Made by a program: the position numbers and the translations under genes. 32,356 nt of DNA. It comes from Dehalococcoidia bacterium (GTDB lineage: Bacteria; Chloroflexota; Dehalococcoidia; DSTF01; JACRBR01). The DNA lies in NCBI GenBank assembly GCA_021462855.1, contig JAJTXQ010000010.1, positions 1 through 32,356 of the forward strand, in the 5' to 3' direction. Within the stretch, counting starts at the first letter, position 1. Every line of letters starts with the position of its first letter. The notes under the pieces were generated by a model that searched no databases, was not told the origin of the DNA, and was given only the letters and a program-made list of their open reading frames with translations. This document shows, in pieces, positions 1,309-26,095 of this stretch.

Positions 1309-1521
1309 CGCGGGGCTGAGGTCGCCGGCGCCAGGCGGCCACGCTGGCCGCGACGGGATACTGCCGGGTAGCCGCTGCAAGAGATATGGCGCCTGCGCTC
1401 GTCGGTGCCCGCCGTGGCAGCAGCCTATTCATCCGCTTACGTTAAGCCGGGTATTGCTCCCAAGCGCGAACAGGGGTATCGTCGCTGCACGTCTGGTTCC
1501 GAGAGGGTACGGAGGAGGAAG

Positions 1522-2583
1522 ATGCACTTGATGCGAAGATGGCACGCCGTGCCATTGGCGGCGCTCGTCGCGCTAGCGGTCGGCGCCGGCTTGATCGGCG
1601 CGATCGCGCCCGGGGGCGTCGAAGCGGGAGGTCCCGTCGACTTCACCTTTGCCGTCGACTGCGACACCTCAGATACGGTGGTCGACTCGGTGTGCGACAA
1701 CGTCCCGCCCGGCGCGCATTCGGTGAACATCGCGCTGTTCAATGACAGCGGGGCGCCGAACACGATCTCGGCGTTTTCGTTCATCTTGCTGGGCGACAAT
1801 ACCGGCAGCCTGAGCGTGAGCGCCCCGCCGAGCCCCAACGGCGCGGTATTCCCCTCGACCCCACCCCTGTCGTTCAACTGCACGCTCGTCCCGCCGGTGC
1901 AGGACAGCGATCCGAGTCCGACGGGGACGAACTCATCGCTCGACTGCTTCTCCGGGTCTGGATTGCCTGTGTCCATCGCGGACGGGGAAACGATCGTCCT
2001 CGGTACGGTGAGCTACACAGCGGCTGCCGGCGGCGCGACGTTCTCGCTGGCGGAGGGTCTCGTCGGCGACGAAGCTGGCGGGAACGTCGTTGTGTGCAGC
2101 GACCCGCAGCAGACGACTTTCACGATACTCTGCAACGGCGCGCTTGTCGGCTACGGCCAGGTCGCGCCTGCGGACACGCCGACGCCGACGAGCACGCCGA
2201 CGAACACGGCGACCCCGACGGCGACGCAGCCGCTGCCCACACCGTGCCAGACCAACTGCCCGACATCGACGTCGCTGGCGTTCGTCACGGTGACGCCGAC
2301 TCCCGGCACGCCAACGGCAGTGGCCGGCAGCGAGACGCCCGCGCCCGCGCCGACCGAGCCCGGTGGCACCACGCCGCCCGGCGGCGGCCAGCAGCCGGGT
2401 GGCGGCACGGGCCCCGGCGGCGGGCGCCCGATCACCCTTCCGGACACCGGCGCCGGTGACGGCGGCGGCCTCGACTGGTCGGCGACGGCGCTCATGGCGC
2501 TCGCCGCCATCGCAGCCGGGCTCATGGCCGGTGGCGTGTACTACGCCGCCGTCCGCCGCATCGAGCGGAACAAGGGAGAGTGA
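1522..2583 (+). CDS. Sortase-anchored cohesin-like surface protein with LPDTG motif
   Basis: ATG at 1522 is preceded by GGAGGAGGAAG, a clear ribosome site; more upstream in-frame starts lack one. Product is 353 aa. Residues 1-35 are a signal peptide (Met-His-Leu-Met-Arg-Arg, then a hydrophobic core ending near GGVEAGG). Residues ~38-215 are a beta-rich domain similar to the first domain of the left-edge gene, with several cysteines and LGTVSYTAA. A short Thr/Pro segment and a Gly/Pro-rich stretch follow. LPDTGAGDGG (motif at 2437-2451), a hydrophobic helix of about 22 residues and the tail RRIERNKGE complete a textbook cell-wall sorting signal. Its stop overlaps the next gene's leader, so the two are probably co-transcribed. 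Three sortases downstream are the likely partners. The binding role is unknown. Confidence 0.85.
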   Translation: MHLMRRWHAVPLAALVALAVGAGLIGAIAPGGVEAGGPVDFTFAVDCDTSDTVVDSVCDNVPPGAHSVNIALFNDSGAPNTISAFSFILLGDNTGSLSVSAPPSPNGAVFPSTPPLSFNCTLVPPVQDSDPSPTGTNSSLDCFSGSGLPVSIADGETIVLGTVSYTAAAGGATFSLAEGLVGDEAGGNVVVCSDPQQTTFTILCNGALVGYGQVAPADTPTPTSTPTNTATPTATQPLPTPCQTNCPTSTSLAFVTVTPTPGTPTAVAGSETPAPAPTEPGGTTPPGGGQQPGGGTGPGGGRPITLPDTGAGDGGGLDWSATALMALAAIAAGLMAGGVYYAAVRRIERNKGE

Positions 2584-2585
2584 GG

Positions 2586-4289
2586 ATGATGCTGAGGAAG
2601 TTCACACGAGCGCTCCGCGTCACGGCCCTGGTTGCCATCCTGGCGGCCACGCTTGGCGGGGCGGCGCTGGTCGGCAGCGGCAGCAGCGTCGAGCCGAAGG
2701 CCGCTGAAGCTGGCCCCACCGCGATGCTCGGGCTCAACAAGGACATGTGCGTCGCGATGGCCGTCGCCTTCGCCGGCCTGGCCGACCTCGACGCGCTGTC
2801 CGCATGCGGCGTGATGATGGTGCAAGACGCGGAGTCCAGCTTCCAGAAGCTGGTCCGCTGCCTGCGCGGCGCCGACAAGGATCTGTCGACCGAAGAGCGC
2901 GACTCGAATGTCACCTGCCTTCTCACGGGCCCGACGCCGCTGCGGCCCGATCCGAGTGAGTTTGCGGTCATCGACCGCGACAAGAACTACGTGCACGGGA
3001 GCCAGCAGTTGATCGTCATGGCCTTCGTGAACGATGACGCGCCGGTGCGGTTTCACACCGATACCGGCGTCCTGCTCAACAACCCGCTGTACCTCGGCAC
3101 GCGCACGCCGGGCAAGGATTTCTACTGCGAGACCGCGAGCCCGCTCACCAACGGCGACCCGGACTGCGACGGCGATCCGGCGACGGTCGGCGATGGCGTC
3201 GTCGTCGGCGTGATCGAATTCGACCTCATCCCGGACGAGGATGAGCTCGGCGACTTCGAAGTGATGGCGATCCAGGAAGGCATCGCCTTCCCGATGACGT
3301 TCCGGGTGCAGGACGTGCCGGAAACCATGTCGCTGGACTACCTCTTCGGCAAGGGCACGATCCAGACGGGCGCCACCGACCCGCCGGAGCCGGGCGAACC
3401 GGTCGAGGCGACGGACTGCGTGTTTGCCGGTTCGACGGCCGGCGTGCTCGGCGCCATTAACTCGCCGTACAAGGCGATCATCCTCATCAAGTCGCTGACA
3501 CAGGACGGCGAGGAGGTCATCGGCACGCTCTTCAACTGGGAGCCGTTGTTCAAGACGGCGTCAGGCGACGACGAGAGCAAGATCGGCGGTGTCGCGCTTC
3601 CGTCGACACCGACGCTCGACACCGGGGCGATCGGCATCGGCTTCCCGCAGTTCGTCTGCGGAAAGGAAGAGCCGGGGACGCTGACGCTCAAGGTGGAAGT
3701 GAACACGCTGCTCTCGGGCAACGCCGAGTTCGAGCAGGACGAGATCGACGTCACGGTCGTCGGTCCGCCGGCGACGATGGAGCTGACCGCCGATCCGAAG
3801 GCGATCGCCTGCGATGGCACGCAGACGTCGAAGGTTACGGCGACGCTCAAGAGAGCCGATGGCGGTAACCCGGCGAACGGCGCCGACGTGGCGTTCAGCG
3901 CCGTCGCGCTCGGCTCGGTGAACCCGCTCGTCGCCGACACGACCGATGGCGTGGCAACGACGACCGTCTCGCCGCTCAGCAACGTGGGCCGCGGCGTCAC
4001 CGTGCTGGCCGAGGTCGACGACGCGTCGCTCGACGACCCGATCAAGGGGTCGATCCTGGTCGAGTGCTTGCCCGGCGGCGCGGCGCCACCGCCCGCGGGC
4101 CAGCCGGCGCCCGGAGGCGGCGCGGCGCCCGGCAGCGGGCGCCCGGGTGGCACGATCACCGGCCCTGACACCGGCTCCGGCGGCGACCTCGACGGCCGCG
4201 GCGCGCTGAGCGCCTGGCCGGCGGTGGCGCTGTTCGTCGGCGCGATGGGCCTCGCCGGCGCGCGCTTCGCGCTCCGGCGCACGGACTGA
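2586..4289 (+). CDS. Sortase-anchored Ig-like surface protein with GPDTG motif
   Basis: The ATG at 2586, behind GGGAGAG, starts two bases after the upstream stop; ATG 2589 is equally possible. Product is 567 aa. A basic N-terminus and hydrophobic core form a signal peptide ending near residue 42. The middle region (residues ~45-390) is cysteine-containing, beta-rich and unrecognised. Residues ~395-500 are a bacterial Ig-like domain of the Big/invasin type (ADPKAIACDGTQTSKVTATL) closely similar to one in the protein at 4851-6416. A Gly/Pro/Ala-rich spacer leads to ITGPDTGSGG (GPDTG at 4161-4175), a hydrophobic helix and the tail RFALRRTD. The arrangement is a sorting signal in which Gly replaces the usual Leu. 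It is likely anchored by a sortase at 6611-9121. Surface-layer or adhesion roles are possible but not shown. Confidence 0.83.
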   Translation: MMLRKFTRALRVTALVAILAATLGGAALVGSGSSVEPKAAEAGPTAMLGLNKDMCVAMAVAFAGLADLDALSACGVMMVQDAESSFQKLVRCLRGADKDLSTEERDSNVTCLLTGPTPLRPDPSEFAVIDRDKNYVHGSQQLIVMAFVNDDAPVRFHTDTGVLLNNPLYLGTRTPGKDFYCETASPLTNGDPDCDGDPATVGDGVVVGVIEFDLIPDEDELGDFEVMAIQEGIAFPMTFRVQDVPETMSLDYLFGKGTIQTGATDPPEPGEPVEATDCVFAGSTAGVLGAINSPYKAIILIKSLTQDGEEVIGTLFNWEPLFKTASGDDESKIGGVALPSTPTLDTGAIGIGFPQFVCGKEEPGTLTLKVEVNTLLSGNAEFEQDEIDVTVVGPPATMELTADPKAIACDGTQTSKVTATLKRADGGNPANGADVAFSAVALGSVNPLVADTTDGVATTTVSPLSNVGRGVTVLAEVDDASLDDPIKGSILVECLPGGAAPPPAGQPAPGGGAAPGSGRPGGTITGPDTGSGGDLDGRGALSAWPAVALFVGAMGLAGARFALRRTD

Positions 4290-4314
4290 CCGCGGCGCAG
4301 CGATACGCACGAAG

Positions 4315-4346
4315 AGGGGGCTCGCGCATGCGAGCCCCCTTTGTGT
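4315..4346 (+). terminator. Rho-independent terminator after the GPDTG protein
   Basis: A perfect 11-bp stem (4315-4325 with 4330-4340) closed by the GCAT loop is followed by TTTGTGT. It lies 25 bases past the stop at 4289. It ends the first two-gene surface operon and implies a separate promoter for the gene starting at 4851. Confidence 0.9.
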
Positions 4347-4850
4347 CGTGCTGGCCGCTGGCGAACCCGACGGCGGCCGCGTGGCCGCGAGCGCGGGCCG
4401 ACGGCCCTTGGCGGAACATAAGGGTACGAACAAATGATCTGCCTTCGCCCCGCAACGGCGCGCCCGGAGCGCGCGGGGCGGCAAGTCCGCAAGGCAAAGC
4501 AGGGAAATCCCTAATGAAATCAGGCGCGCGGGCGGTTAACCTTTCGCCCGCGCGGGGCGTTCTACGGACGGCGCCCGAGAAGGGTGCCAATCGCGTGTTT
4601 AGGTCCCGCATGGATGCGGTTGGATTGCCCCGCGGAGGAGGAAAGGAGGGCAGGACGCCCGGCAGCGGAATCTCGGACGGCACCACAGGATCGCGTCGCG
4701 GTAACTCGGCCGAGGGCGACGCGGGCCGCAGGACGGCAAAGCCTCCACTGCCAGGCGAAGCCAGCACAGTACAAAAACAGACGATTCGGCCGGAACGTGC
4801 GGCGCTTGAGGAAAGCCCCGCACATCCCAATCCCAGGAGGAGACAGTCAA
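4347..4850 (+). promoter_or_regulatory. Long hairpin-rich leader, candidate regulatory RNA, upstream of the TTG-started surface gene
   Basis: This 504-base gap carries no convincing gene. It is dense in hairpins: a strong stem of GCGCGGGCG with its complement enclosing GTTAACCTT (about 4526-4553), GGCGCCC with GGGTGCC closing a GAGAA loop (4570-4588), CCGCA/TGCGG (4606-4619), and CGCGTCGC with GCGACGCG (about 4691-4723). Purine-rich single-stranded pieces such as GGCAAAGCC (4735-4743) sit between them. The AGGAGGAG ribosome site at 4834-4841 closes the leader. These are features of a structured 5' untranslated region or separate small RNA. I could not match it to a known riboswitch. A promoter must lie inside it, because a terminator sits at its start, but no clear -35/-10 pair was found. 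Confidence 0.5.
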
Positions 4851-6416
4851 TTGAGTAAGTTTGGTATTGGCGCCATCGCGCTGGTCGCGGCCGTACTGCT
4901 CGGCTTCGGCGCGCGCATTGGCACCCAGACCGCTCACGCCGAGGTCGACGGCACCGTCGCCATCGGTTGTGAGTTCCTCGCCCGGTACATCGATGGCGAC
5001 CCGGACGACCCGACCGCCGCTGGTGACTACACCTCTGCCTGCGACGGCATCACGGGCGGCGCTCCGGGCGCTGGTGAAGTTGGCGCCCTCGGCGACGCCC
5101 TCGGCGACGAGGACGGCACGCTCGAAGCGTCGGACTTCGACGACATCGACATGGACGCGAACCAGATCCAGGACGGCGGCGCGAGCTGGCTCGACGAGAT
5201 CCTGGTCTTCGCGTTCGTCGACAACGACGAGACGGTCCTGTTTGACGCGGGTTCTGGTCTCACGGTCGACATTCACCTGGACACCACCGGCGCTTCGGCC
5301 GGCGCGGGCACCGACCTGAACGCCGAGACCTGCGACGCGACCGACTCGATCGACCTCGACTGCGAGACGGCGACGCTGGACGACGGCGACGGCGTGGTGG
5401 TTGCCACCCTCACCGACGGCACCGGCGACCCCGGCGACGACGTCGACGTTGACGTCGAGCAGGCGGACGACCCGGACACGGTCAGCACGCAGACGATCTC
5501 GGTCGTCGGCGCGCCTGACGAGATCACGCTCGAGGCGCTCAAGGGCACGATCGAGGCGACTGGCTCGACCAGCGACTTCGATGACTGCCTCGAGGAGTCT
5601 GATGTCTCCGACGCCGGCACGATCGGCGACGTCGACAAGACGATCCTCAAGGCGGTCGTGGTCGACGACGACGGTGTCGAGCTGACCCGCATCGCCGTCG
5701 ACTGGGATGTCGACGACAGCGACGTGGCCGACTGGGACAGCGACAGCGGCGAAGACGCTGACGAGCCGAAGGCGGACACGGGCATCACGGTCGACACCGG
5801 CGACCTGGCCGGCATCGGCCAGTTCCTGGTCCTCTGCGGCGGCACCGAGACCGGCACGGCCACGGTCACCGCTGACGAGCCCACCTCGAACGAGGACGCG
5901 AGCGTGGATGTGAACGTTGTCGGCGCGCCGGCGACGATCGCCCTCACGGCGTCCCCGGCGGCGATTGCCTGCGACGGCACGCAGACCTCGTCGGTGACGG
6001 CGAAGGTCACGGACTCTGGCGGCAACAACGTCGCCAATGGCACGAGCGTTGAGTTCAGCGTGGTTGCGCTGGGCACGGCGAACCCGATCACGACCACGAC
6101 CGCGGATGGCTCCGCCTCCTCGACGATCACCCCGCTCTCCGGCGCGACCGCCGGTGTGGTGGTGCTCGTGACGGCGGGCGACGCCCAGGCTTCGATCCGC
6201 ATCGACTGCTCGCTCCCGATCCCGACGGCGACGTCGACGGGCCCGCAGCCGACGCCGACGCGCCCGGGTGGCATCGTCGGTCCGGACACCGGTAACGGTG
6301 GCTACCTCGGCCAGGACGGCTCGGCTGGCTTCCCGATGTGGACGCTGGTCGCGCTGGCCCTCGGCAGCGTGGCTCTCGTCGCCGGCGGCATGGTTACGCG
6401 CAAGGTGAGCAAGTAA
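4851..6416 (+). CDS. Acidic sortase-anchored Ig-like surface protein with GPDTG motif, TTG start
   Basis: The start is TTG at 4851, about ten bases after AGGAGGAG. It gives a short N-terminus (SKFGIGAIALVAAVLLGF..) and a signal peptide ending QTAHA-EVDG, whereas upstream in-frame starts would bury that signal. Product is 521 aa. The mature chain is extremely rich in Asp and Glu through ~residue 350, with beta-strand-like segments spaced by DD/DVD runs. Residues ~360-460 are an Ig-like domain (ASPAAIACDGTQTSSVTAKV) paralogous to that of the protein at 2586-4289. IVGPDTGNGG (GPDTG at 6279-6293), a hydrophobic helix and the tail RKVSK form the sorting signal. The hairpin-rich leader and strong ribosome site suggest high, controlled expression, as for an S-layer or other abundant surface protein; that is inference. 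Confidence 0.82.
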   Translation: MSKFGIGAIALVAAVLLGFGARIGTQTAHAEVDGTVAIGCEFLARYIDGDPDDPTAAGDYTSACDGITGGAPGAGEVGALGDALGDEDGTLEASDFDDIDMDANQIQDGGASWLDEILVFAFVDNDETVLFDAGSGLTVDIHLDTTGASAGAGTDLNAETCDATDSIDLDCETATLDDGDGVVVATLTDGTGDPGDDVDVDVEQADDPDTVSTQTISVVGAPDEITLEALKGTIEATGSTSDFDDCLEESDVSDAGTIGDVDKTILKAVVVDDDGVELTRIAVDWDVDDSDVADWDSDSGEDADEPKADTGITVDTGDLAGIGQFLVLCGGTETGTATVTADEPTSNEDASVDVNVVGAPATIALTASPAAIACDGTQTSSVTAKVTDSGGNNVANGTSVEFSVVALGTANPITTTTADGSASSTITPLSGATAGVVVLVTAGDAQASIRIDCSLPIPTATSTGPQPTPTRPGGIVGPDTGNGGYLGQDGSAGFPMWTLVALALGSVALVAGGMVTRKVSK

Positions 6417-6474: not shown

Positions 6475-6610
6475 ACCACATCCGGGCCGCGCCGCGCGGC
6501 GTACTCGTTGCGGCGCGGGGAGCCAGCGGCGATCCCGTATGGCACACTATGGCGGGGGCGGATGAGGCCGCGCGCGGACGGTGCGCGCGGAGGACAGGGG
6601 ACAAGGCGAC

Positions 6611-7426
6611 ATGATGGACCAGGAGAACGGGGGCGGCGGCTTCCTCTCGCGGCTGCGGGAGAATGAGACGCTGCGCAAGATCACCGGCGGCCGGCCAGAT
6701 ATCGCCATCTTCGGGCTGCCGGTGCTGCTCATCGGCGTGATCATCGCGGGCGTGGTGCTGGGTCTGACGCTCGGCGGCGGCTCGGGCGAAGGCGATGACC
6801 AGCAGGTCGCCGGCTCGCCGACGGCGACGGCCGCGGCATCGAAGACGGCCGAACCGACGAAGACCCAGGTGCACGCCGGCATCCTGACGCCGATCCCGGT
6901 GAGCCCGGGCGACCGGCTGGCGCTGTCGGACCTGGCGGCCCGGGGCGCCGGCCCGGCGCCGCGCGGCGACTTCAACGGCCAGCGCCTGCTCATCCCGAGC
7001 ATCGGCGTCGATGCGGAGTTCTCGTTCAAGCAGGTCCCGCCCTCCGGCCAGATGCCAAACCCCAACGGCCCGACCGATGTCGCGTACTACGACTTCGGGC
7101 AGTGGCCCGGCATGGGCGGTGTGCCGGGGCTCGGCGGCAATGTCGTGCTTGCCGGCCATGTCGACTACATCCGATACGGCCCGGCCGTGTTCTGGGACCT
7201 CGCCCAGGTGAAGGCCGGCGACCGCATCCAGATCCGGATGAAGGACGGCGCGGTCATCGAGTACCAGGTGGAGTTCAACAAGACGTTCGAGGTCGGCAAC
7301 GCGGACTGGAGCTCCATCGTGGCCGCGACGGGCGATGAGTCGGTGACGCTCATCACCTGCGGCGGCGAGTTCGAGGCCGGGCACTACAGCGACCGCCGCA
7401 TCGTCTGGGGACGGCGCATTACCTAG
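6611..7426 (+). CDS. Membrane-anchored class F-like sortase 1
   Basis: ATG pair at 6611/6614; AAGGCG is the nearest ribosome-site-like sequence. Product is 271 aa. Residues 1-30 are cytoplasmic, ~31-54 a membrane helix (IAIFGLPVLLIGVIIAGVVL), then a Thr/Ala linker and a sortase domain from ~124 (QRLLIPSIGVDAEF). Catalytic residues are visible: His183 in LAGHVDY, Cys250 in VTLITCGG and Arg262/263 in YSDRRIV. The motif LITCGG with a C-terminal YxDRxVV is typical of class F-type sortases of actinobacteria and Chloroflexota. It should cleave the Thr-Gly bond of LPDTG/GPDTG proteins and transfer them to a cell-wall or surface acceptor outside the membrane. It is the first of three adjacent sortases, directly downstream of three putative substrates. 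Confidence 0.9.
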   Translation: MMDQENGGGGFLSRLRENETLRKITGGRPDIAIFGLPVLLIGVIIAGVVLGLTLGGGSGEGDDQQVAGSPTATAAASKTAEPTKTQVHAGILTPIPVSPGDRLALSDLAARGAGPAPRGDFNGQRLLIPSIGVDAEFSFKQVPPSGQMPNPNGPTDVAYYDFGQWPGMGGVPGLGGNVVLAGHVDYIRYGPAVFWDLAQVKAGDRIQIRMKDGAVIEYQVEFNKTFEVGNADWSSIVAATGDESVTLITCGGEFEAGHYSDRRIVWGRRIT

Positions 7427-7591
7427 CGTGTACGGCGCCCGGAATGCGTGGCGCGGCTCCGGGCGCGCGTTGTCATCGGGCCAGCGGCAGGCGCGCGGAT
7501 GTCCAATCCGTGCGTATGCTGAGCGCCCGTACTGGATTATCCTGATGTGCGTTGCCCCGCCGGCAGCCGTAGACATCGATAAGGGGGAAGC

Positions 7592-8395
7592 ATGCCGGCT
7601 CCGATCCGCAATCTCTGGAACGACGCGAGCGCGCTGAAGCGCGCGCTGCTCGTGGGCGGCCCGCTCGCGGTGGTCGCCATCATCGCCACGGTGGCGGTGG
7701 TGGCAGCGACGGGCGATGGCGGCGAGCCGCCGGCCGAGGCCGTCGCGCCGACGGCGACGGCGACCGCGACCGCGACGGCGACAGCGATGCCGACCGACAC
7801 GCCGCTCCCGACGGCGACGCCGGCGCCGGCGCCTCCGCCCAGCTCGGGCGGCAGCAGCGGCGGCGGCGGGACGTACCGGCCGCCGAGCGGCGGCGGGCAG
7901 GTCGTACAGCCGCAAGCCGGCACGGGCCCCGGCCCGGTGCAGAGCACCGGCATGTCCATGAGCATCCCGAAGATCGGCGTCAACGGCGCGGTGTCCTCGC
8001 GGACGGTGGGCACGAATGGCCGCATGGGTGACCCGATCGGCGCGTGGATGGTCCTCTGGTATGACTTCTCGACGTACTCGCCGGGCTACGGCGGCTACCC
8101 GGGCGAGCCGGGCGCGAACGCCGTATTCTCGGGCCACGTCGACTACATCAACGTCGGTCCGGCGGTGTTCTGGAGCATCCGGAGCCTTGCGCCTGGCGAC
8201 CAGGTGACCGTGAATACGCCGAACGGGCCGATCACCTATGCGATAGAGTGGAGTACGTGGGCGGGACCGCGCGACGACTTCACCGGCTACGTGGCGCAGA
8301 CAGGCCAGGATGTGATCACGCTGGTGACGTGCATTGGCACATTCAGCGGCGGGCACTACAGCGACCGGCTGATCGTGCGTGGCGTGCGCATCTAG
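7592..8395 (+). CDS. Membrane-anchored class F-like sortase 2
   Basis: ATG at 7592 follows AAGGGGGAAGC. Product is 267 aa. A membrane helix covers ~18-40, followed by a TATATAT/Pro/Gly linker to residue ~118, longer than in its neighbours. The sortase domain spans ~120-267: His182 (FSGHVDY), Cys247 (ITLVTCIG) and Arg259 (YSDRLIV). The TCIG sequence differs from the TCGG and TCSG of its neighbours, which may reflect a different substrate or acceptor. It is paralogous to the proteins at 6611 and 8453, from which it is separated by 165 and 57 bases. The long linker would place the active site further from the membrane. Division of labour among the three is inference. Confidence 0.9.
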   Translation: MPAPIRNLWNDASALKRALLVGGPLAVVAIIATVAVVAATGDGGEPPAEAVAPTATATATATATAMPTDTPLPTATPAPAPPPSSGGSSGGGGTYRPPSGGGQVVQPQAGTGPGPVQSTGMSMSIPKIGVNGAVSSRTVGTNGRMGDPIGAWMVLWYDFSTYSPGYGGYPGEPGANAVFSGHVDYINVGPAVFWSIRSLAPGDQVTVNTPNGPITYAIEWSTWAGPRDDFTGYVAQTGQDVITLVTCIGTFSGGHYSDRLIVRGVRI

Positions 8396-8452
8396 CCCGA
8401 TACATCGCCCGGCCGCCTGCGTTCGTATCGATGCAGAGGTAATCGCGCCCGG

Positions 8453-9121
8453 ATGGTCAAGGTGAATTCGAACAGGCTTTCGTACGCGCTGATCACGCTC
8501 GGGACGGCGCTGATCGTCGTCGCCGTCACGCTGATGGCGCTCGTCGCCACGGACGTCATCGACGACGGGTCGACGGGCAACAGTGACCTCGAGACGGTCA
8601 CGACGTTCGGCGACCCGATCGACATCACGCCCCAGGCGAGCGTCACTCCGTCAAGCAAGTTCCCGCCGCCGTCGAACGCGCCGATCACGCGGCTGGTCAT
8701 CCCGCGCGCCGAGATCGATGCGCCGGTTGTCGTCCGCGGCGTCGACGAGGCGCGGGTGATGCAGACGCCGGACAACGCGTGGGACACCGCGTGGTACGAC
8801 TTCAGCGCGGTCCCCGGATACGGCGGGAACGCCGTGTTCTCGGGCCACGTCGACTACATCAACGTCGGCAAGGCGGTGTTCTGGAACCTGAAAGACCTCG
8901 TCGAGGGCGACGTTGTCGAAGTGCGGCTCGAAGACGGCACGACGTACACGTACGCCGTCACGTCGAAGCAGCAATACGACGCGACGACGGCGCCGGTCGA
9001 CCAGATCGTCGGGCCGACAGCGAACGAAGTGGTGACACTGATCACGTGCAGCGGCACGTTCAGCAGCGCCACGCACCAGTACGACAAACGCCTCGTCATC
9101 CGCGCCGAGCGCATCGCGTAG
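8453..9121 (+). CDS. Membrane-anchored class F-like sortase 3
   Basis: ATG at 8453; AGAGGTAA lies about twelve bases upstream, so translation may partly depend on the preceding gene. Product is 222 aa, the shortest of the three. A membrane helix spans ~10-33 and the linker is short. The sortase domain starts at ~78 (ITRLVIPRAEIDAPVVV) with His132 (FSGHVDY), Cys199 (VTLITCSG) and Arg213 (YDKRLVI). The pieces SGHVDYINVG and AVFW are nearly identical to sortase 2, pointing to local duplication. The same reaction as its neighbours is expected: transpeptidation of PDTG-bearing surface proteins. Confidence 0.9.
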   Translation: MVKVNSNRLSYALITLGTALIVVAVTLMALVATDVIDDGSTGNSDLETVTTFGDPIDITPQASVTPSSKFPPPSNAPITRLVIPRAEIDAPVVVRGVDEARVMQTPDNAWDTAWYDFSAVPGYGGNAVFSGHVDYINVGKAVFWNLKDLVEGDVVEVRLEDGTTYTYAVTSKQQYDATTAPVDQIVGPTANEVVTLITCSGTFSSATHQYDKRLVIRAERIA

Positions 9122-14383: not shown

Positions 14384-15076
14384 ATGCCGGGCACGATCCT
14401 CGTCGTAGACGACGAAAAGAACATCGTTAACCTCGCGCGGCTCTACCTCAACAACGAGGGGTTTCGCGTCGAATCCGCCTCCGACGGCAAGCAGGGGCTG
14501 GAGAAGGCGCGCGCCATCAAGCCGGACCTCATCGTCCTCGACATCATGATGCCGGAGATGGACGGGCTCACCGTCTGCAAGGAGCTCCGGAAGACGAGCA
14601 ACGTGCCGGTCATCATCCTCACCGCGCGCGGAGATGACATCGACCGGATCGTCGGGCTGGAGATCGGCGCCGACGACTACATGCCCAAGCCGTTCAACCC
14701 GCGGGAGCTCGTCGCCCGCGTGAAGGCCGTGCTCCGCCGCGCCCAGGGCGAGCGCGAGGTGCCGGAGGTCGTCGAGGTCGACGGCCTGCGCATCGACTCC
14801 GCGAGCCGCGAGGTGACGCTGAACGGGCAGCCGCTGCAGCTTCGTGCCAAGGAATTCGACCTGCTGACCGCCTTCGCCCAGCACAAGGGCACCGTGCTCG
14901 ACCGGGAGCGCCTGCTGCGCATGGTCTGGGGCGCCGACTATTTCGGTGACTCACGGACGATCGATGTGCACGTGGCGTGGCTCCGCGACAAGCTCGGGGA
15001 CTCCGCGGTCAAGATCCAGACCGTCTGGGGGGTCGGGTACAAGCTGGTAGTGGAAAGCGATGCTGGGGAGTCTTAG
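14384..15076 (+). CDS. OmpR/PhoB-family response regulator (PhoP/PhoB-like)
   Basis: ATG at 14384 with GAGAGAGG upstream. Product is 230 aa, typical length. The receiver domain has the acidic pocket Asp9/Asp10 (VVDDEK), phosphoacceptor Asp53 (LIVLDIMMPEMDG), Thr80 (IILTARG) and Lys102 (YMPKPFNPRELVARV). A winged-helix DNA-binding domain covers ~130-228 and includes RAKEFDLL, VLDRERLL and VHVAWLRDKLGD. It should be phosphorylated by the kinase encoded next and act at promoters as a tandem dimer. Its stop lies 17 bases inside the kinase gene, so translation is coupled. Phosphate control is suggested by the phased repeats upstream, but the signal cannot be read from the protein itself. Confidence 0.93.
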   Translation: MPGTILVVDDEKNIVNLARLYLNNEGFRVESASDGKQGLEKARAIKPDLIVLDIMMPEMDGLTVCKELRKTSNVPVIILTARGDDIDRIVGLEIGADDYMPKPFNPRELVARVKAVLRRAQGEREVPEVVEVDGLRIDSASREVTLNGQPLQLRAKEFDLLTAFAQHKGTVLDRERLLRMVWGADYFGDSRTIDVHVAWLRDKLGDSAVKIQTVWGVGYKLVVESDAGES

Positions 15077-16577
15077 GGCCAGGCTCATTGTCTCGTTCGC
15101 GGTGGTGGTGGCGCTGGCCGTGTTCCTCGCCGGCGCCGGCGCGTTGTTCCTGTTGCGCGACCAGCAACAGGAGTCGGCGCGCGAGCGGTACGGCCGCCAC
15201 GCCGAGCCCGTCAACGAACGCGTGGGCGCGATGCTGGCGCTCGGCGCGAGCGTCAACGACATCAAGGACGCGCTCGCCGAGCGGGCGGGGGAACTTGGCA
15301 TCCGCATTGTGCTGGTGGACGAGGACCTGCTCGTCGTCTTCGACAGCGACGCGGATCAGCGGCTGCTCGGCCACTACATCCTGTCATTCGAGAACCGCGA
15401 CCTGGCGCTGATCAACGAGAACGGCGCGCGCTACCGCTGGACGAACTACGACGGCGGCGACGCGCACCTGACATTGTTCGCGCCGCCGCCCGCCGAGTCC
15501 GAGGCGACGGGCACGTTCACGCCGCCGCGGTACGAGGCGATCGTCGCGATCCCGCAGAACGAGCTGTCGTCGGCGTGGCTGGAGCTTGCCCCGAGGCTCG
15601 CGCTGGCGGGAAGCATCGCGCTGGCGGTCTCGTTCGCGGTCGCGTGGTTCATCTCGCGCTCGATCTCCGGGCCGCTGGCGCGCATCACGCAGGCGTCGGT
15701 GCAGATGGCGCGCGGCAACTACGACGTGCACATCCCGATCCGCGGCCAGGACGAGGTCGGGCGCCTGTCGGAGGCGTTCAACCACATGGCGCGCGAGGTC
15801 AGCGGGTCACAGCGCATGATGCGCGACCTGCTCGCCAATGTCTCGCACGAGCTGAAGACGCCGCTGACATCGATCCAGGGGTTTTCGCAGGCGATGCTCG
15901 ATGGCGCGATCACGGACGAGGAGCAATTCCGCGAGTCGTGCAACATCATCAACGAAGAAGCGAACCGCATGCGGGCGCTGGTCGATGACCTGCTGCTGCT
16001 GTCGCAGCTCGAATCGGGGCAGGTGGAGATGCAGCACGCGCACGTGGACCTGGTGCTGGTGCTGCAGCACACGCTGGAGCGCTTCATGTGGACGCTGCGC
16101 GACGCCGGCATCGAATCGCGCCTGCGTCTCGGCCACCTGCCCGAGGTGCACGGCGACGAGCGGCGGTTGGAGCAGGTGTTCTCGAACCTCATCGAGAACG
16201 CGGTGCGGCACACGCCGCGCGGTGGCGCGATCACCCTCACAGCGCAAGGGCAGCGCAACGGCGAGATCAGTATCGGCGTGCACAACACCGGGTCATACAT
16301 CCCGCCGGAGGATCTGCCGCGCGTGTTCGAGCGGTTCTTCCAGGTGGACCGCGCGCGGGCGCGCAAGGGCGGCAGCAGCGGCCTCGGCCTGTCGATCGTC
16401 TCGGAGATCGTCGAGGCGCACGGCGGCACGGTGCGCGCGGCGAGCGACCGCGACAACGGCACGGAGTTCATCGTCACGCTGCCGTCGGCGCCGATGACCG
16501 AGCGCGCCGGGCGGACGCTCGGCTCCGACGCCCGGAAGCCGCGCCGCCCCGCGAGCAAGCGCGAAGCGCCCGCGTGA
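15060..16577 (+). CDS. Membrane sensor histidine kinase
   Basis: ATG at 15060 overlaps the regulator gene by 17 bases. Product is 505 aa. Membrane helix 1 covers ~9-31. An extracytoplasmic sensor domain covers ~32-175 (PAS/Cache-like; includes RIVLVDEDLLVVFDSD). Membrane helix 2 spans ~177-200, then a HAMP linker (SISGPLARITQASVQMARGNY). The HisKA domain carries His263 in LANVSHELKTPLTSI. The HATPase domain has the N box (NLIENAVRHTP), F box (FERFFQVDRARA) and G box (GLGLSIVSEIVEAHGG). This is the cognate kinase of the preceding regulator. The C-terminal ~25 residues are Arg/Lys-rich. The sensor domain type resembles PhoR/ResE-like kinases; the ligand is unknown. Confidence 0.93.
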   Translation: MLGSLRARLIVSFAVVVALAVFLAGAGALFLLRDQQQESARERYGRHAEPVNERVGAMLALGASVNDIKDALAERAGELGIRIVLVDEDLLVVFDSDADQRLLGHYILSFENRDLALINENGARYRWTNYDGGDAHLTLFAPPPAESEATGTFTPPRYEAIVAIPQNELSSAWLELAPRLALAGSIALAVSFAVAWFISRSISGPLARITQASVQMARGNYDVHIPIRGQDEVGRLSEAFNHMAREVSGSQRMMRDLLANVSHELKTPLTSIQGFSQAMLDGAITDEEQFRESCNIINEEANRMRALVDDLLLLSQLESGQVEMQHAHVDLVLVLQHTLERFMWTLRDAGIESRLRLGHLPEVHGDERRLEQVFSNLIENAVRHTPRGGAITLTAQGQRNGEISIGVHNTGSYIPPEDLPRVFERFFQVDRARARKGGSSGLGLSIVSEIVEAHGGTVRAASDRDNGTEFIVTLPSAPMTERAGRTLGSDARKPRRPASKREAPA

Positions 16578-22299: not shown

Positions 22300-22435
22300 C
22301 TACGGGCAGGGACCCGCGTGCTGCGCGACGAATTGCAGGTCGAGCACGTTGATCGAGCCATCCTTGGTCACGTCGAAGTCGACGATGTACCCGGCCGGGC
22401 CAGAGGGCGAGACGCTCAACGCGATCTGCTGCAGG
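22300..22435 (-). pseudogene. Broken dockerin-like C-terminus
   Basis: On the minus strand, about 44 codons ending in a stop at 22300-22302 read ..GYIVDFDVTKDGSINVLDLQFVAQ.., a single dockerin/EF-hand-type loop with a Cys near the end. This resembles the tail of the left-edge protein and the tail cut by the right edge. Upstream the reading runs straight into a CRISPR-like repeat with no start codon or protein context, so the rest of the gene appears to be missing. Most likely it is the surviving 3' end of a surface-protein gene, truncated by the event that brought in the repeats. Confidence 0.55.
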
Positions 22436-22598
22436 GGGACTGAAACCTGACCTACCTCGCTAGTGGTGCGGTAGCCGACGACGCCACGAAGTTGCAGACC
22501 ACGAATCCCCTTCGGGGGACTGAAACTTGGGCAGCGGGTACTCGTCGTCCTCGACCTGATAGGTTGCAGACCACGAATCCCCTTCGGGGGACTGAGCA
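22430..22598 (+). CRISPR. Minimal CRISPR array, three repeats and two spacers, no cas genes
   Basis: Repeat 2 (22491-22526, 36 bases) and repeat 3 (22563-22598) agree over 33 bases, starting GTTGCAGACCACGAATCCCC and containing the palindrome CCCCTTCGGGG. Repeat 2 ends ACTGAAAC, a typical 8-base 3' handle; repeat 3 ends ACTGAGCA, the degenerate last repeat expected at the trailing end. Repeat 1 (22430-22446) keeps only TGCA plus GGGGGACTGAAAC and looks internally deleted. Spacers are 44 and 36 bases (22447-22490, 22527-22562). Orientation is plus, with the leader side at left. No cas gene lies in the window. Confidence 0.78.
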
Positions 22599-23560: not shown

Positions 23561-24466
23561 CTACCGCTGCGTGACACGGATGGAGCCGGCGTGCGAGCGC
23601 AGGCGTACCTTCGGGCCGCCCGACGGTGGCGGGCCGCCGCCGTGCCGCGGCTCGAGGTCAGACTTCACGCTTCCGACGCTCGCCTCGGCCTCGAGGAAGA
23701 ACGGGTGCGCCGGGTCCACGGCGAAGGTGATGCTCCCCGCGTGCGCCTCGATATCGACGTCGGCGCAGACGCGGCCGCGGAAGCGCACGCTGCCCGCTTT
23801 GGCGCGCGCGTGCCCCCGCCCGCCAGGGTCGTCGATGTTCAGCGAGCCGCTGGCCGCCGACGCCTGCAGGTCGCCGCGCACGCGCTCGATGTCGAGCGTG
23901 CCGCTGCGCGCTTCGACGCGGGCGCTGCCTTCGATCTCACGCATACGCACGCGCCCGCTGCGCGCCTCCGCCGTGACGTTGCCGCTGATACGCTCGATCA
24001 ACACGGTGCCGCTGCGTGAGACGGCCGTGACGTCGCCGCGGATGTCCTCGACGCCGAGCTTGCCGCTCAACGCTTCCGTATGGACGACGCCCTCGATGTG
24101 GGTGATCTGCACGCCGCCGCTGCGCGAGAGCACGCGCACCGCGCTGTGCACCGGGACGACCACGCGATAGTCGACGCGGGCGCGCCCGCCGAACAGGCCG
24201 GACCAGCCGGCCCGGTTCTGGAGCGACGGCGCCCGCACGATCACGCGGTGCTGGTCCTGCTCCATGTTGCGCGCGACGAGCGCCGCCGCGTCGTCGGCCT
24301 CGGCGGCGAGGTCGGTCCAGACGCGCACGACCGCATCGACCAGCACCGATCCGCGGCCGGCGCGGCCCTCGACGATCACGTCGCCGGAGCGCGCTTCCAG
24401 GTGCAGCACCGCCTTCTCGCCCGTACCGAACTCGCGCGTGATGGTGCGCACGTGCTCCATGGTCAT
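23561..24466 (-). CDS. DUF4097-type beta-strand-repeat protein
   Basis: Start at 24466, overlapping the thioredoxin-like stop as ATGA; ATG 24460 is an alternative. Product is 301 aa. No signal peptide or membrane helix. From ~120 to the end it is built of short repeated units of the form SGxVxIExIxGxVxAxA (SRSGTVLIERISGNVTAEAR, ARSGRVRMREIEGSARVEAR), which predict a right-handed beta-solenoid, as in DUF4097/DUF4098 proteins. The N-terminal ~110 residues (GEKAVLHLEARSGDVIVEGR) are a distinct beta domain. It is the last gene of the RHH-led operon. The family's role is unknown; adhesin-like or membrane-stress roles have been proposed for relatives. Confidence 0.82.
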   Translation of the reverse strand: MTMEHVRTITREFGTGEKAVLHLEARSGDVIVEGRAGRGSVLVDAVVRVWTDLAAEADDAAALVARNMEQDQHRVIVRAPSLQNRAGWSGLFGGRARVDYRVVVPVHSAVRVLSRSGGVQITHIEGVVHTEALSGKLGVEDIRGDVTAVSRSGTVLIERISGNVTAEARSGRVRMREIEGSARVEARSGTLDIERVRGDLQASAASGSLNIDDPGGRGHARAKAGSVRFRGRVCADVDIEAHAGSITFAVDPAHPFFLEAEASVGSVKSDLEPRHGGGPPPSGGPKVRLRSHAGSIRVTQR

Positions 24467-24879
24467 CCGCCCACCGAGAATCCCCAGAGGCGCGTCGTGA
24501 AGTCGTTCCACAGGCCCCGCGGCTGCGGCGTGTCGTGCGCCAGCACGACGTCAGGGCCGAGCGCGCGGCGCAGCGCCGCGGCCAGCTCGCGCCGCGAGTG
24601 CGGCCCGACAAGCCGGGCGACCTCGGAGGAATGGTGCAGCACGACGAACGTGGGCAGGAATTCGATGCGGAAGCGCCGGCGCAGGTCGGGTGACGCGTCG
24701 ACGTCGACGGCGCGCACGGGCAGGCGGCCGATGCCGCGCAGCTCGATGCCGCCGGCGCGCGCGGCGATCGGCCGCTGCTTGCAGCGCGACGACGTGAACT
24801 CGATGACGAGGGGCACGCCGGCGACGGTTGGCGCCGATTCGTTGGTGTACGCGCGTTCGGGCGCGATGTTCATGGTCAT
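24463..24879 (-). CDS. Thioredoxin-fold protein with a single active-site cysteine
   Basis: Start at 24879 (MTMNIAPE). Product is 138 aa. The fold is suggested by LVIEFTSSRCKQRPI, VRAVDVDASPDLRRRF, the cis-Pro motif FLPTFVV (Pro77) and the last strand/helix ARLVGPHSRRELAAALRRAL. The WCxxC site is SRCKQR: the first Cys (Cys33) is kept and the second is Arg, so it cannot form the usual internal disulfide; monothiol or non-redox function is likely. The C-terminal ~30 residues (PQPRGLWNDFTTRLWGFSVGG) extend past the domain. No signal peptide. It overlaps the DUF4097 start by four bases and starts 11 bases after the membrane protein gene. Confidence 0.72.
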   Translation of the reverse strand: MTMNIAPERAYTNESAPTVAGVPLVIEFTSSRCKQRPIAARAGGIELRGIGRLPVRAVDVDASPDLRRRFRIEFLPTFVVLHHSSEVARLVGPHSRRELAAALRRALGPDVVLAHDTPQPRGLWNDFTTRLWGFSVGG

Positions 24880-24890
24880 GGCGGCAGCTG

Positions 24891-25259
24891 TTACTCCCAG
24901 CGGCGGGCGACGTTGCCCCATTCATGCGATTCCGGCCATTCGCGCCAGCGGCGGTGGCGGCGGTGTTCGCCGCCGTCGAGCGACACGACGCGCGGCATGA
25001 ACGCGGCGAGGCCGCTGACGACGGACATCGCGATCAGCCAGTCGCGGGTGGCATCGACCGTCCCGGCGAGCAGCAGCACGGCGAGCGCGAACGAGGCGAG
25101 GCGCAGGTCGAGCGCCGGCCGCAGGCGGAGCGGCGCCCACGGGCGGAGGCGCATGGCAACGGCGCCGGTGAGCGCGACGAGCGCGATCAGCCAGCCGCGC
25201 GTCGGGTCGGCGGCGCCGCCAAGCAACACGAGCGAGATGACGAACGCGGCGATGGCCAT
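24891..25259 (-). CDS. Small membrane protein made of two duplicated helical hairpins
   Basis: ATG at 25259 behind AAAGGAGCG. Product is 122 aa. Four hydrophobic segments lie near 2-16, 21-37, 53-68 and 72-90. The first half (VLLGGAADPTRGWLIALVAL) and second half (VLLLAGTVDATRDWLIAMSV) are clearly related, so the protein arose by duplication of a ~40-residue helical hairpin with a (D)xTRxWLIA turn. The last ~30 residues are soluble, His/Arg/Trp-rich. I do not recognise the family. It is the third gene in the RHH-led operon and may be the membrane partner of the DUF4097 or thioredoxin-like protein. Confidence 0.7.
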   Translation of the reverse strand: MAIAAFVISLVLLGGAADPTRGWLIALVALTGAVAMRLRPWAPLRLRPALDLRLASFALAVLLLAGTVDATRDWLIAMSVVSGLAAFMPRVVSLDGGEHRRHRRWREWPESHEWGNVARRWE

Positions 25260-25276
25260 CGGTGGCGCTCCTTTCG

Positions 25277-25486
25277 TCAGCGTGCGGCGGCGAGCGTGTT
25301 GCGCGCCGCGCCGGCATCGATGTGCAGGCCGATGCGCACGAGCGCGGCGGCGATCGCCGGGCGGACGCCGATGTGCGCGTCCGCGCGCATGCCGGCGATC
25401 TCGGCGGCTCGCGCCAGGTCGACGCGGGCGGTTTCGTGCGCGCGCGCCTCGGCGAGGATCTCGATCACGATGGGGTTGTCGAGCAT
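25277..25486 (-). CDS. Small helical protein of unknown function
   Basis: ATG at 25486 is preceded by AGGAGGAGAAGGAC, one of the best ribosome sites in the window, so this start is preferred over 25504. Product is 69 aa, mostly helical, with alternating Ala/Arg-rich and acidic stretches (EILAEARAHETARVDLARAA) and no membrane helix. I do not recognise it. It lies 36 bases after the RHH gene and 17 before the membrane protein gene, inside the same operon. An antitoxin- or toxin-like partner of the RHH protein is conceivable but nothing in the sequence shows it. Confidence 0.6.
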   Translation of the reverse strand: MLDNPIVIEILAEARAHETARVDLARAAEIAGMRADAHIGVRPAIAAALVRIGLHIDAGAARNTLAAAR

Positions 25487-25522
25487 GTCCTTCTCCTCCT
25501 GCACCCCGGCCGGGTGCGGACG

Positions 25523-26029
25523 TCAGTCTTCGTCGCCGCCGACCCAGCCGGAGATGCGGTTGCGGCGCCTGCCGCGTTCCTCGCGCCAGCCCTGTGGCTG
25601 CGAGGACGGTTCGGAGCTGCGGATCGCGCGGGCGAGCGCCTTCACGAACCAGGAGTTGGCGGAGGTGCCGGCGCGGGCGGCGGCCTGCTGCGCCAGGTCC
25701 TTCAGTTCGGCGGGGATGCGGATGGTGATCTTCTCTACGTCGCCTTCGAGGGTGGTCCAGCGGGCGGCCTCGCCGTCCTGCACCTTCTCCTCGACATCGA
25801 GCGCGAGCGCGCCGGGGCGGTAGGCGAGCCGCACGCGGTAGTGGTCGCCGACGCGCTCGTCGACGGCCTGCGCGAGCTGCGACATCAGGTCGAAGACGGC
25901 GCGCTCGACGTGCAGGCGGGCGGCCTCGATGAAGGCCTCGGCCTGGCGGCGGCGCTGGTCATCGTCGATGAGCGCGAGTGGCTGCTTGATCGCGTCGATG
26001 ACGGATTCGGTGCGGAGCTCGACTGCCAT
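25523..26029 (-). CDS. Ribbon-helix-helix (HicB/Arc-type) regulator
   Basis: ATG at 26029 behind GGAGGGG; the frame is open much further upstream but that part overlaps the methyltransferase antisense. Product is 168 aa. Residues 1-95 are an unrecognised alpha/beta domain (RRRQAEAFIEAARLHVERAV, YRVRLAYRPGALALDVEE). Residues ~99-136 are a ribbon-helix-helix motif: KITIRIPAELKDLAQQAAAR followed by SANSWFVKALARAI, matching the C-terminal DNA-binding half of HicB-like antitoxins. The tail is Arg-rich then acidic. No HicA-like toxin is nearby. It heads a five-gene minus-strand operon, and phased repeats overlap its promoter, so it is probably an autorepressor of the operon. Confidence 0.75.
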   Translation of the reverse strand: MAVELRTESVIDAIKQPLALIDDDQRRRQAEAFIEAARLHVERAVFDLMSQLAQAVDERVGDHYRVRLAYRPGALALDVEEKVQDGEAARWTTLEGDVEKITIRIPAELKDLAQQAAARAGTSANSWFVKALARAIRSSEPSSQPQGWREERGRRRNRISGWVGGDED

Positions 26030-26059: not shown

Positions 26060-26095
26060 TGGCATGATGATGGCATAATGCTGGCACCGTGTCAA
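26060..26095 (-). promoter_or_regulatory. Promoter with three 11-bp-phased repeats, probable RHH operator
   Basis: On the plus strand TGGCA starts at 26060, 26071 and 26082, exactly 11 bases apart (TGGCATGATGA, TGGCATAATGC, TGGCAC). On the minus strand TTGACA (26095-26090) and CATCAT (26072-26067) are 17 bases apart and frame the repeats. A protein bound to the repeats would cover the spacer and -10 box. RHH proteins bind such tandem sites as dimers. Confidence 0.6.

Follow-up and report, generated by a model that had tools for sequence, protein, structure and literature searches.

Operons that join an RHH regulator, a Toastrack (DUF4097) protein and an ABC transporter have already been described in Actinobacteria, in work that also proposes Toastrack as a submembrane docking domain and that reports dyads of PspA and thioredoxin in Actinobacteria and Cyanobacteria, with the thioredoxin described there as active (Ravi et al. 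2024, mSystems, PMC11237479). Toastrack proteins are widespread, and their role has mostly been guessed. The operon analyzed here is a variant of the published kind, because RHH-Toastrack-ABC operons were already on record; new is a Toastrack-RHH operon variant that has no exporter and belongs to a genome in which neither PspA nor PspC was found.

The operon and its persistence within one family

The window, by which we mean the whole stretch of 32,356 nucleotides analyzed, contains five minus-strand genes, 26029-23561. The first encodes an RHH regulator, and behind it come genes for a small protein of 69 aa, a membrane protein with a duplicated hairpin, a protein with a thioredoxin fold and a DUF4097/Toastrack protein. 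The features are as follows.

26060-26095, minus strand: promoter with embedded candidate operator; -35 element TTGACA at 26095-26090, -10 element CATCAT at 26072-26067
25523-26029, minus strand: RHH regulator, 168 aa; N-terminal alpha3-beta2 domain at residues 2-81, RHH domain at about 98-139, conserved tail ending SGWVG
25277-25486, minus strand: small protein, 69 aa; conserved C-terminal amphipathic helix RxxLAxALVRLGLxLD
24891-25259, minus strand: membrane protein, 122 aa; duplicated short TM hairpin with DPTRGW and DATRDW turns, Arg/Trp-rich C-terminal tail
24463-24879, minus strand: thioredoxin-fold protein, 138 aa; without CxxC, PF00085 at 5.6e-6, conserved GPHSRREL and C-terminal WNDFTTRLWGF
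23561-24460, minus strand: DUF4097/Toastrack beta-solenoid protein, 299 aa; PF13349 at 2.6e-7, NCBIfam LiaG at 3.9e-13, without TM segment or signal peptide

The five genes form one operon, the existence of which is confirmed. As the sequence-only reading had it, all five are present on the minus strand with short gaps (36, 17, 11 and 2 nt from RHH toward DUF4097), and the shared promoter region that it posited corresponds to a single sigma-70-like promoter just 5' of the RHH gene, the sole one in 23.4-26.4 kb. The ATGA overlaps claimed in the same reading fared less evenly: one is possible at the thioredoxin/DUF4097 junction (24466-24463), and only with a start two codons further upstream, and the other junctions have none. 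For the small protein, the ATG at 25486 (69 aa, with AGGAGG upstream) is preferred over the GTG at 25504 (75 aa). The surroundings of the operon, 22.7-26.7 kb, contain no ABC ATPase or permease gene.

The same five protein families, in the same order, are found across the eight genomes analyzed from the window's own taxonomic family, which belongs to Dehalococcoidia-like Chloroflexota, according to search models derived from the window together with its first relatives, and with two loci cut by contig ends included in the count: in G119, the contig ends just after the thioredoxin gene, with Toastrack beyond view, and in G120, another contig end carries the RHH start and the promoter, and the hairpin protein is left out of the scoring. 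The thioredoxin profile yields one strong match in each of these eight genomes, and, in the 10 further genomes from the order, only weak matches to ordinary thioredoxins. The thioredoxin-fold proteins of the first three genera compared are 62-75% identical to that of the window, the RHH proteins 58-68% and the Toastrack proteins 53-62%. For three other genera, the 18 kb surrounding the operon contain none of the nine neighboring window proteins tested (0/9). The flanking genes differ while the five genes persist; therefore, the set stays together as its surroundings change. The idea of a non-random neighborhood, which was to be abandoned if the genes lay scattered in relatives, has thus come through the co-occurrence check proposed along with it, the order being kept in the eight genomes and the flanks changing in three genera.

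Several other features of the window deserve mention. Three consecutive plus-strand ORFs (6581-9121) resemble, by eye, class E/F sortase-type proteins, with TLITC motifs, an N-terminal TM segment and a low-complexity linker, and before them, at 1405-6416, are ORFs with C-terminal motifs that look LPDTG/GPDTG-like, also by eye. A response regulator and a HAMP-type sensor kinase, judged by eye from the translations, are paired at 14384-16577, about 7 kb from the operon and unlinked to it. At 22430-22597, a 33-nt direct repeat, GTTGCAGACCACGAATCCCCTTCGGGGGACTGA, is present in two identical copies 72 bp apart, and a third, incomplete copy ends with GGGGGACTGAAAC at about 22434-22446. When up to three mismatches are allowed, the genome contains no full copies besides these two. 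The arrangement looks like a relic CRISPR array with two spacers.

The promoter and its candidate operator

The sequence 5' of the RHH gene reads TTGACA CGG TGCCA GCATTA TGCCA TCATCA TGCCA. It thus combines a sigma-70-like promoter, TTGACA-17-CATCAT, with TG two bases before the -10 element, and a tandem array of three TGCCA boxes (26086-26082, 26075-26071 and 26064-26060) with a period of 11 bp, located within the promoter. Within the window, the three-box motif occurs once, in 100 shuffles it does not occur at all, and the candidate operator site at zero mismatches is unique in the window's genome. When promoters are aligned on TTGACA, the boxes stand at offsets 9, 20 and 31 in both operon types, that is, in 11 window-type loci, where TGCCA identity at these offsets is 0.73, 0.91 and 0.82, and in 12 ABC-type loci, where it is 0.58, 0.95 and 0.75; at nearly every other offset in the same loci, it is at or below 0.40. 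The upstream sequences from Streptomyces plasmids appear, by eye, to keep the same box register, for example, TTGCGATGG CGCCA AAACGG TGCCA CTATGG CGTCA. As an exception, the box words are present in another arrangement in L013, and in L022 and L023, no operator site was found in the 150 bp upstream of the RHH start chosen there. In the ABC-type loci L047-L060, the third box shares bases with the ATG start codon (TGCCATG), a sign that the mRNAs of these operons may be leaderless.

A blind search of 400 genomes of the phylum for the -35 element plus three boxes recovered three exact matches and a single match with one mismatch, all four of them 5' of RHH operons (genomes G000, G085, G479 and G051). 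At two mismatches in the same search, RHH loci account for about half of the further matches; the matches at two to three mismatches include clear non-RHH sites and are more numerous than those of the reversed control. A regulon search in the eight genomes of the family, at up to two mismatches, placed the exact or near-exact site at this operon and otherwise gave weaker matches at about the reversed-control rate. The two-mismatch matches in G122 and, across a contig break, in G120 are the operon's own site as well; the one in G120, which had looked odd, is the operon's promoter on a contig that is broken there.

RHH proteins, such as Arc, MetJ and CopG, bind tandem short boxes cooperatively. 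Because they do, local autorepression of the operon by promoter occlusion is the straightforward reading, and the anatomy of the promoter argues strongly for it.

The encoded proteins and their layered variants

The DNA-binding RHH regulator leads the operon, as proposed from the sequence alone. Its matches to Pfam HicB (PF05534, E=0.0017) and NCBIfam YlcI/YnfO (E=1e-6) are both just below the cut-off and involve the C-terminal half only. The N-terminal alpha3-beta2 domain has a confident structure model (pLDDT about 90), and the RHH part is modeled as a monomer with lower confidence; searched against the PDB, the model gave no confident match, the N-terminal domain included, with Arc and other RHH proteins as weak ones. 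The RHH domain with its SGWVG tail is homologous to the RHH domain and TGWVR tail of the exporter-type regulators of Toastrack-ABC operons (98.5% probability, E=1.7e-15). For the N-terminal domains of the two types of regulators, hhalign and HMMER did not demonstrate homology, and the layout is similar by eye. We found no paper on HicB-family RHH together with DUF4097.

The small protein and the hairpin protein have no match in Pfam or NCBIfam. The hairpin duplication reported in the sequence-only reading can be seen as MAIAAFVISLVLLGGAADPTRGWLIALVALTG and LRLASFALAVLLLAGTVDATRDWLIAMSVVSG: by eye and by hydropathy, the membrane protein has four short hydrophobic stretches arranged in two hairpins, each made up of a pair of short helices with DPTRGW or DATRDW at the turn, and has Arg-rich segments between the hairpins and at the C-terminus, a pattern suggesting that both of these segments face the cytoplasm.

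The thioredoxin fold of the fourth protein is supported by PF00085 (E=5.6e-6, over the cut-off) and by Foldseek matches to thioredoxins (E=8e-6 to 2ppt, TM-score about 0.5), with a query model of mean pLDDT only 63 and of low confidence outside the thioredoxin core. The stretch at the active site is SSRCKQRP in the window, with one Cys and no CxxC, and the Cys is replaced by V or A in six of the eight orthologues. The earlier picture of a one-Cys thiol protein that cannot cycle normally gives way, accordingly, to that of a fold that is, by its active-site residues, redox-dead; because the Cys is V or A in 6/8 genomes, a docking role appears likely. Among the orthologues, GPHSRREL is invariant and the C-terminal WNDFTTRLWGF near-invariant, which suggests that they form a binding surface.

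The Toastrack protein has no TM segment (highest 19-residue hydropathy 0.95), is not membrane-anchored and is taken as cytosolic. Its gene and that of the RHH regulator are neighbors in the sense of sharing an operon, with three genes between them. A second DUF4097-like protein is encoded elsewhere in the window's genome (G000:C52:56168-56602, L099), with no RHH model match in the surrounding stretch L002; a Pfam-based genome count of DUF4097 was set aside because it missed the window's own copy.

Relatives present the operon in various compositions. In G070, in L022 (the locus of G128) and in the very similar L023, all from the same order, it runs from RHH through the small protein and a single-hairpin membrane protein to Toastrack; L020, not assigned to an order, has the same arrangement; and G056 (L012/L024), from another family of the class, has RHH, then the small protein and then Toastrack. 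The operons in these relatives lack ABC genes. Loci from other classes of the phylum have genes for Toastrack and a DrrA-like ABC ATPase after the RHH gene, and no small protein, and those of family f109 mostly have the ABC genes there, with Toastrack missing. At three loci of this family (L047, L050 and L053), ABC exporter genes stand behind the same RHH regulator and a similar operator, without Toastrack between them, and because regulator, operator and exporter coexist there without Toastrack, the main role of the RHH protein may be to regulate an exporter. RHH-DUF4097 pairs are present on three Streptomyces plasmids, which confirms the link between the two families in actinobacteria that the sequence-only reading had drawn; it is also published (PMC11237479). 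The hairpin duplication and the thioredoxin were seen in the window's family only, where the exporter is absent. Altogether, this looks like stepwise layering onto a regulator-Toastrack core, with the order of gains and losses read from the distribution and not from a rooted tree.

Possible roles and relation to known systems

The reading that we prefer, and to which we assign an even chance, is that of an autoregulated, membrane-linked Toastrack operon comprising a promoter-occluding repressor and a submembrane complex, where repression is deduced from promoter anatomy, and docking, sensing and feedback are proposed by analogy only. RHH dimers would bind the three TGCCA boxes, one helical turn (11 bp) apart, from -35 to -10, and block RNA polymerase at the single promoter; sequestration or release of the repressor would then let the other four proteins be made. 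The four-helix hairpin protein would reside in the membrane with its Arg-rich loops toward the cytoplasm. From the cytosol, the Toastrack solenoid and the redox-dead thioredoxin would bind to it, serving as scaffold or adaptor, and with help from the small amphipathic protein, a submembrane complex would form that could report or buffer envelope disturbance and act back on the RHH protein. In related operons, a DrrA-type ABC exporter would be under the control of this regulator and operator instead. The submembrane complex and envelope sensing, which follow the Toastrack proposal (PMC11237479), are put forward by analogy with moderate confidence, and an envelope-stress role, judging from other Toastrack operons, is plausible. 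We advance more tentatively, as possible rather than probable, a Toastrack module of membrane response, free of PspA, PspC, kinase and exporter, in which the small duplicated-hairpin protein as sensor and the redox-dead thioredoxin, purely as adaptor, would relay the state of the membrane to the RHH repressor, with the 11-bp promoter operator common to two phyla.

It is rather unlikely that the operon responds, instead, to drugs or lipids, with the N-terminal domain of the RHH protein binding a small hydrophobic ligand and thereby causing derepression, which is what one would expect of its exporter-linked relatives, and with the hairpin, thioredoxin-fold and Toastrack proteins binding or buffering the ligand or membrane damage and not serving as stress sensors. 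Relatives with the same operator do encode DrrA/DrrB-type exporters, and the confidently modeled alpha3-beta2 domain that precedes the RHH domain might be a ligand-binding one, but the exporter is absent from the window operon and the N-terminal domain has no confident structural match, so that the ligand pocket is hypothetical. Neutral co-transcription of a conserved but functionally unconnected gene string would fit the absence of the thioredoxin outside the family and of the hairpin protein outside close relatives, but is improbable when the order persists in several genera, with 53-75% identity of the RHH, thioredoxin-fold and Toastrack proteins, while the neighbors change, and when genes seem to have been added stepwise to the same regulator-Toastrack core. 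A toxin-antitoxin-like module, with RHH as antitoxin and autorepressor and the small amphipathic or the hairpin protein as a membrane-acting toxin, is highly improbable, even if the DNA-binding half of RHH is related to HicB/YlcI-YnfO, a Streptomyces relative is labeled 'HicB family antitoxin' by NCBI, and a putative autoregulatory operator is coupled with a small hydrophobic partner, since none of the five proteins has a match to HicA or another known toxin in Pfam, NCBIfam or PADLOC, in other classes, the same regulator and operator stand before genes for Toastrack and an ABC exporter and the small protein is absent, and the operon is single-copy and family-wide, not patchy. The toxin-antitoxin ancestry ascribed to the regulator in the sequence-only reading adds little, given an operon with no toxin gene and no PADLOC model match. 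A defense-system reading found no support either, no PADLOC model having been matched.

The autoregulated, membrane-linked operon that we favor would bear on Toastrack biology in several ways. A defined putative regulator-operator pair common to Chloroflexota and Streptomyces makes the releasing signal of Toastrack operons searchable by reporter; the absence of the exporter, PspA and PspC isolates what Toastrack and its partners do; and here is a thioredoxin fold without its chemistry, the surface of which is still conserved.

Compared with HicAB and other RHH toxin-antitoxin operons, the window shares an RHH autoregulator, as far as can be judged from its promoter, at the head of a small operon, but the N-terminal domain differs, the partner genes are unrelated and there is no toxin. 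Like the Lia and PSP systems (LiaG/LiaF Toastrack, PspA, PspC), it has a LiaG-matching Toastrack (3.9e-13) beside a multi-TM protein; unlike them, it has no two-component system in the operon. Set against the four-helix LiaI-LiaF-TM membrane domain, the hairpin protein shows four short hydrophobic stretches and no LiaF-type family match in Pfam or NCBIfam. Neither PspA (PF04012; controls positive in 9) nor PspC (PF04024; controls positive in 7) was found in the window's 97% complete genome, and therefore, the operon is not an obvious partner of the classical PSP system. As in the PspA-thioredoxin dyads, a thioredoxin-fold protein is encoded with an envelope-stress-type partner, but the window protein lacks CxxC and PspA was not found. 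The RHH-Toastrack-ABC operons share with the window the RHH and Toastrack/DUF4097 neighbors, the homologous RHH domain and GWV tail, and the same three-box promoter operator. In contrast to these operons, the window has no ABC ATPase or permease, its Toastrack is not membrane-anchored, and in place of the transporter genes it has those for a small protein, a membrane protein with a duplicated hairpin and an apparently redox-dead thioredoxin fold.
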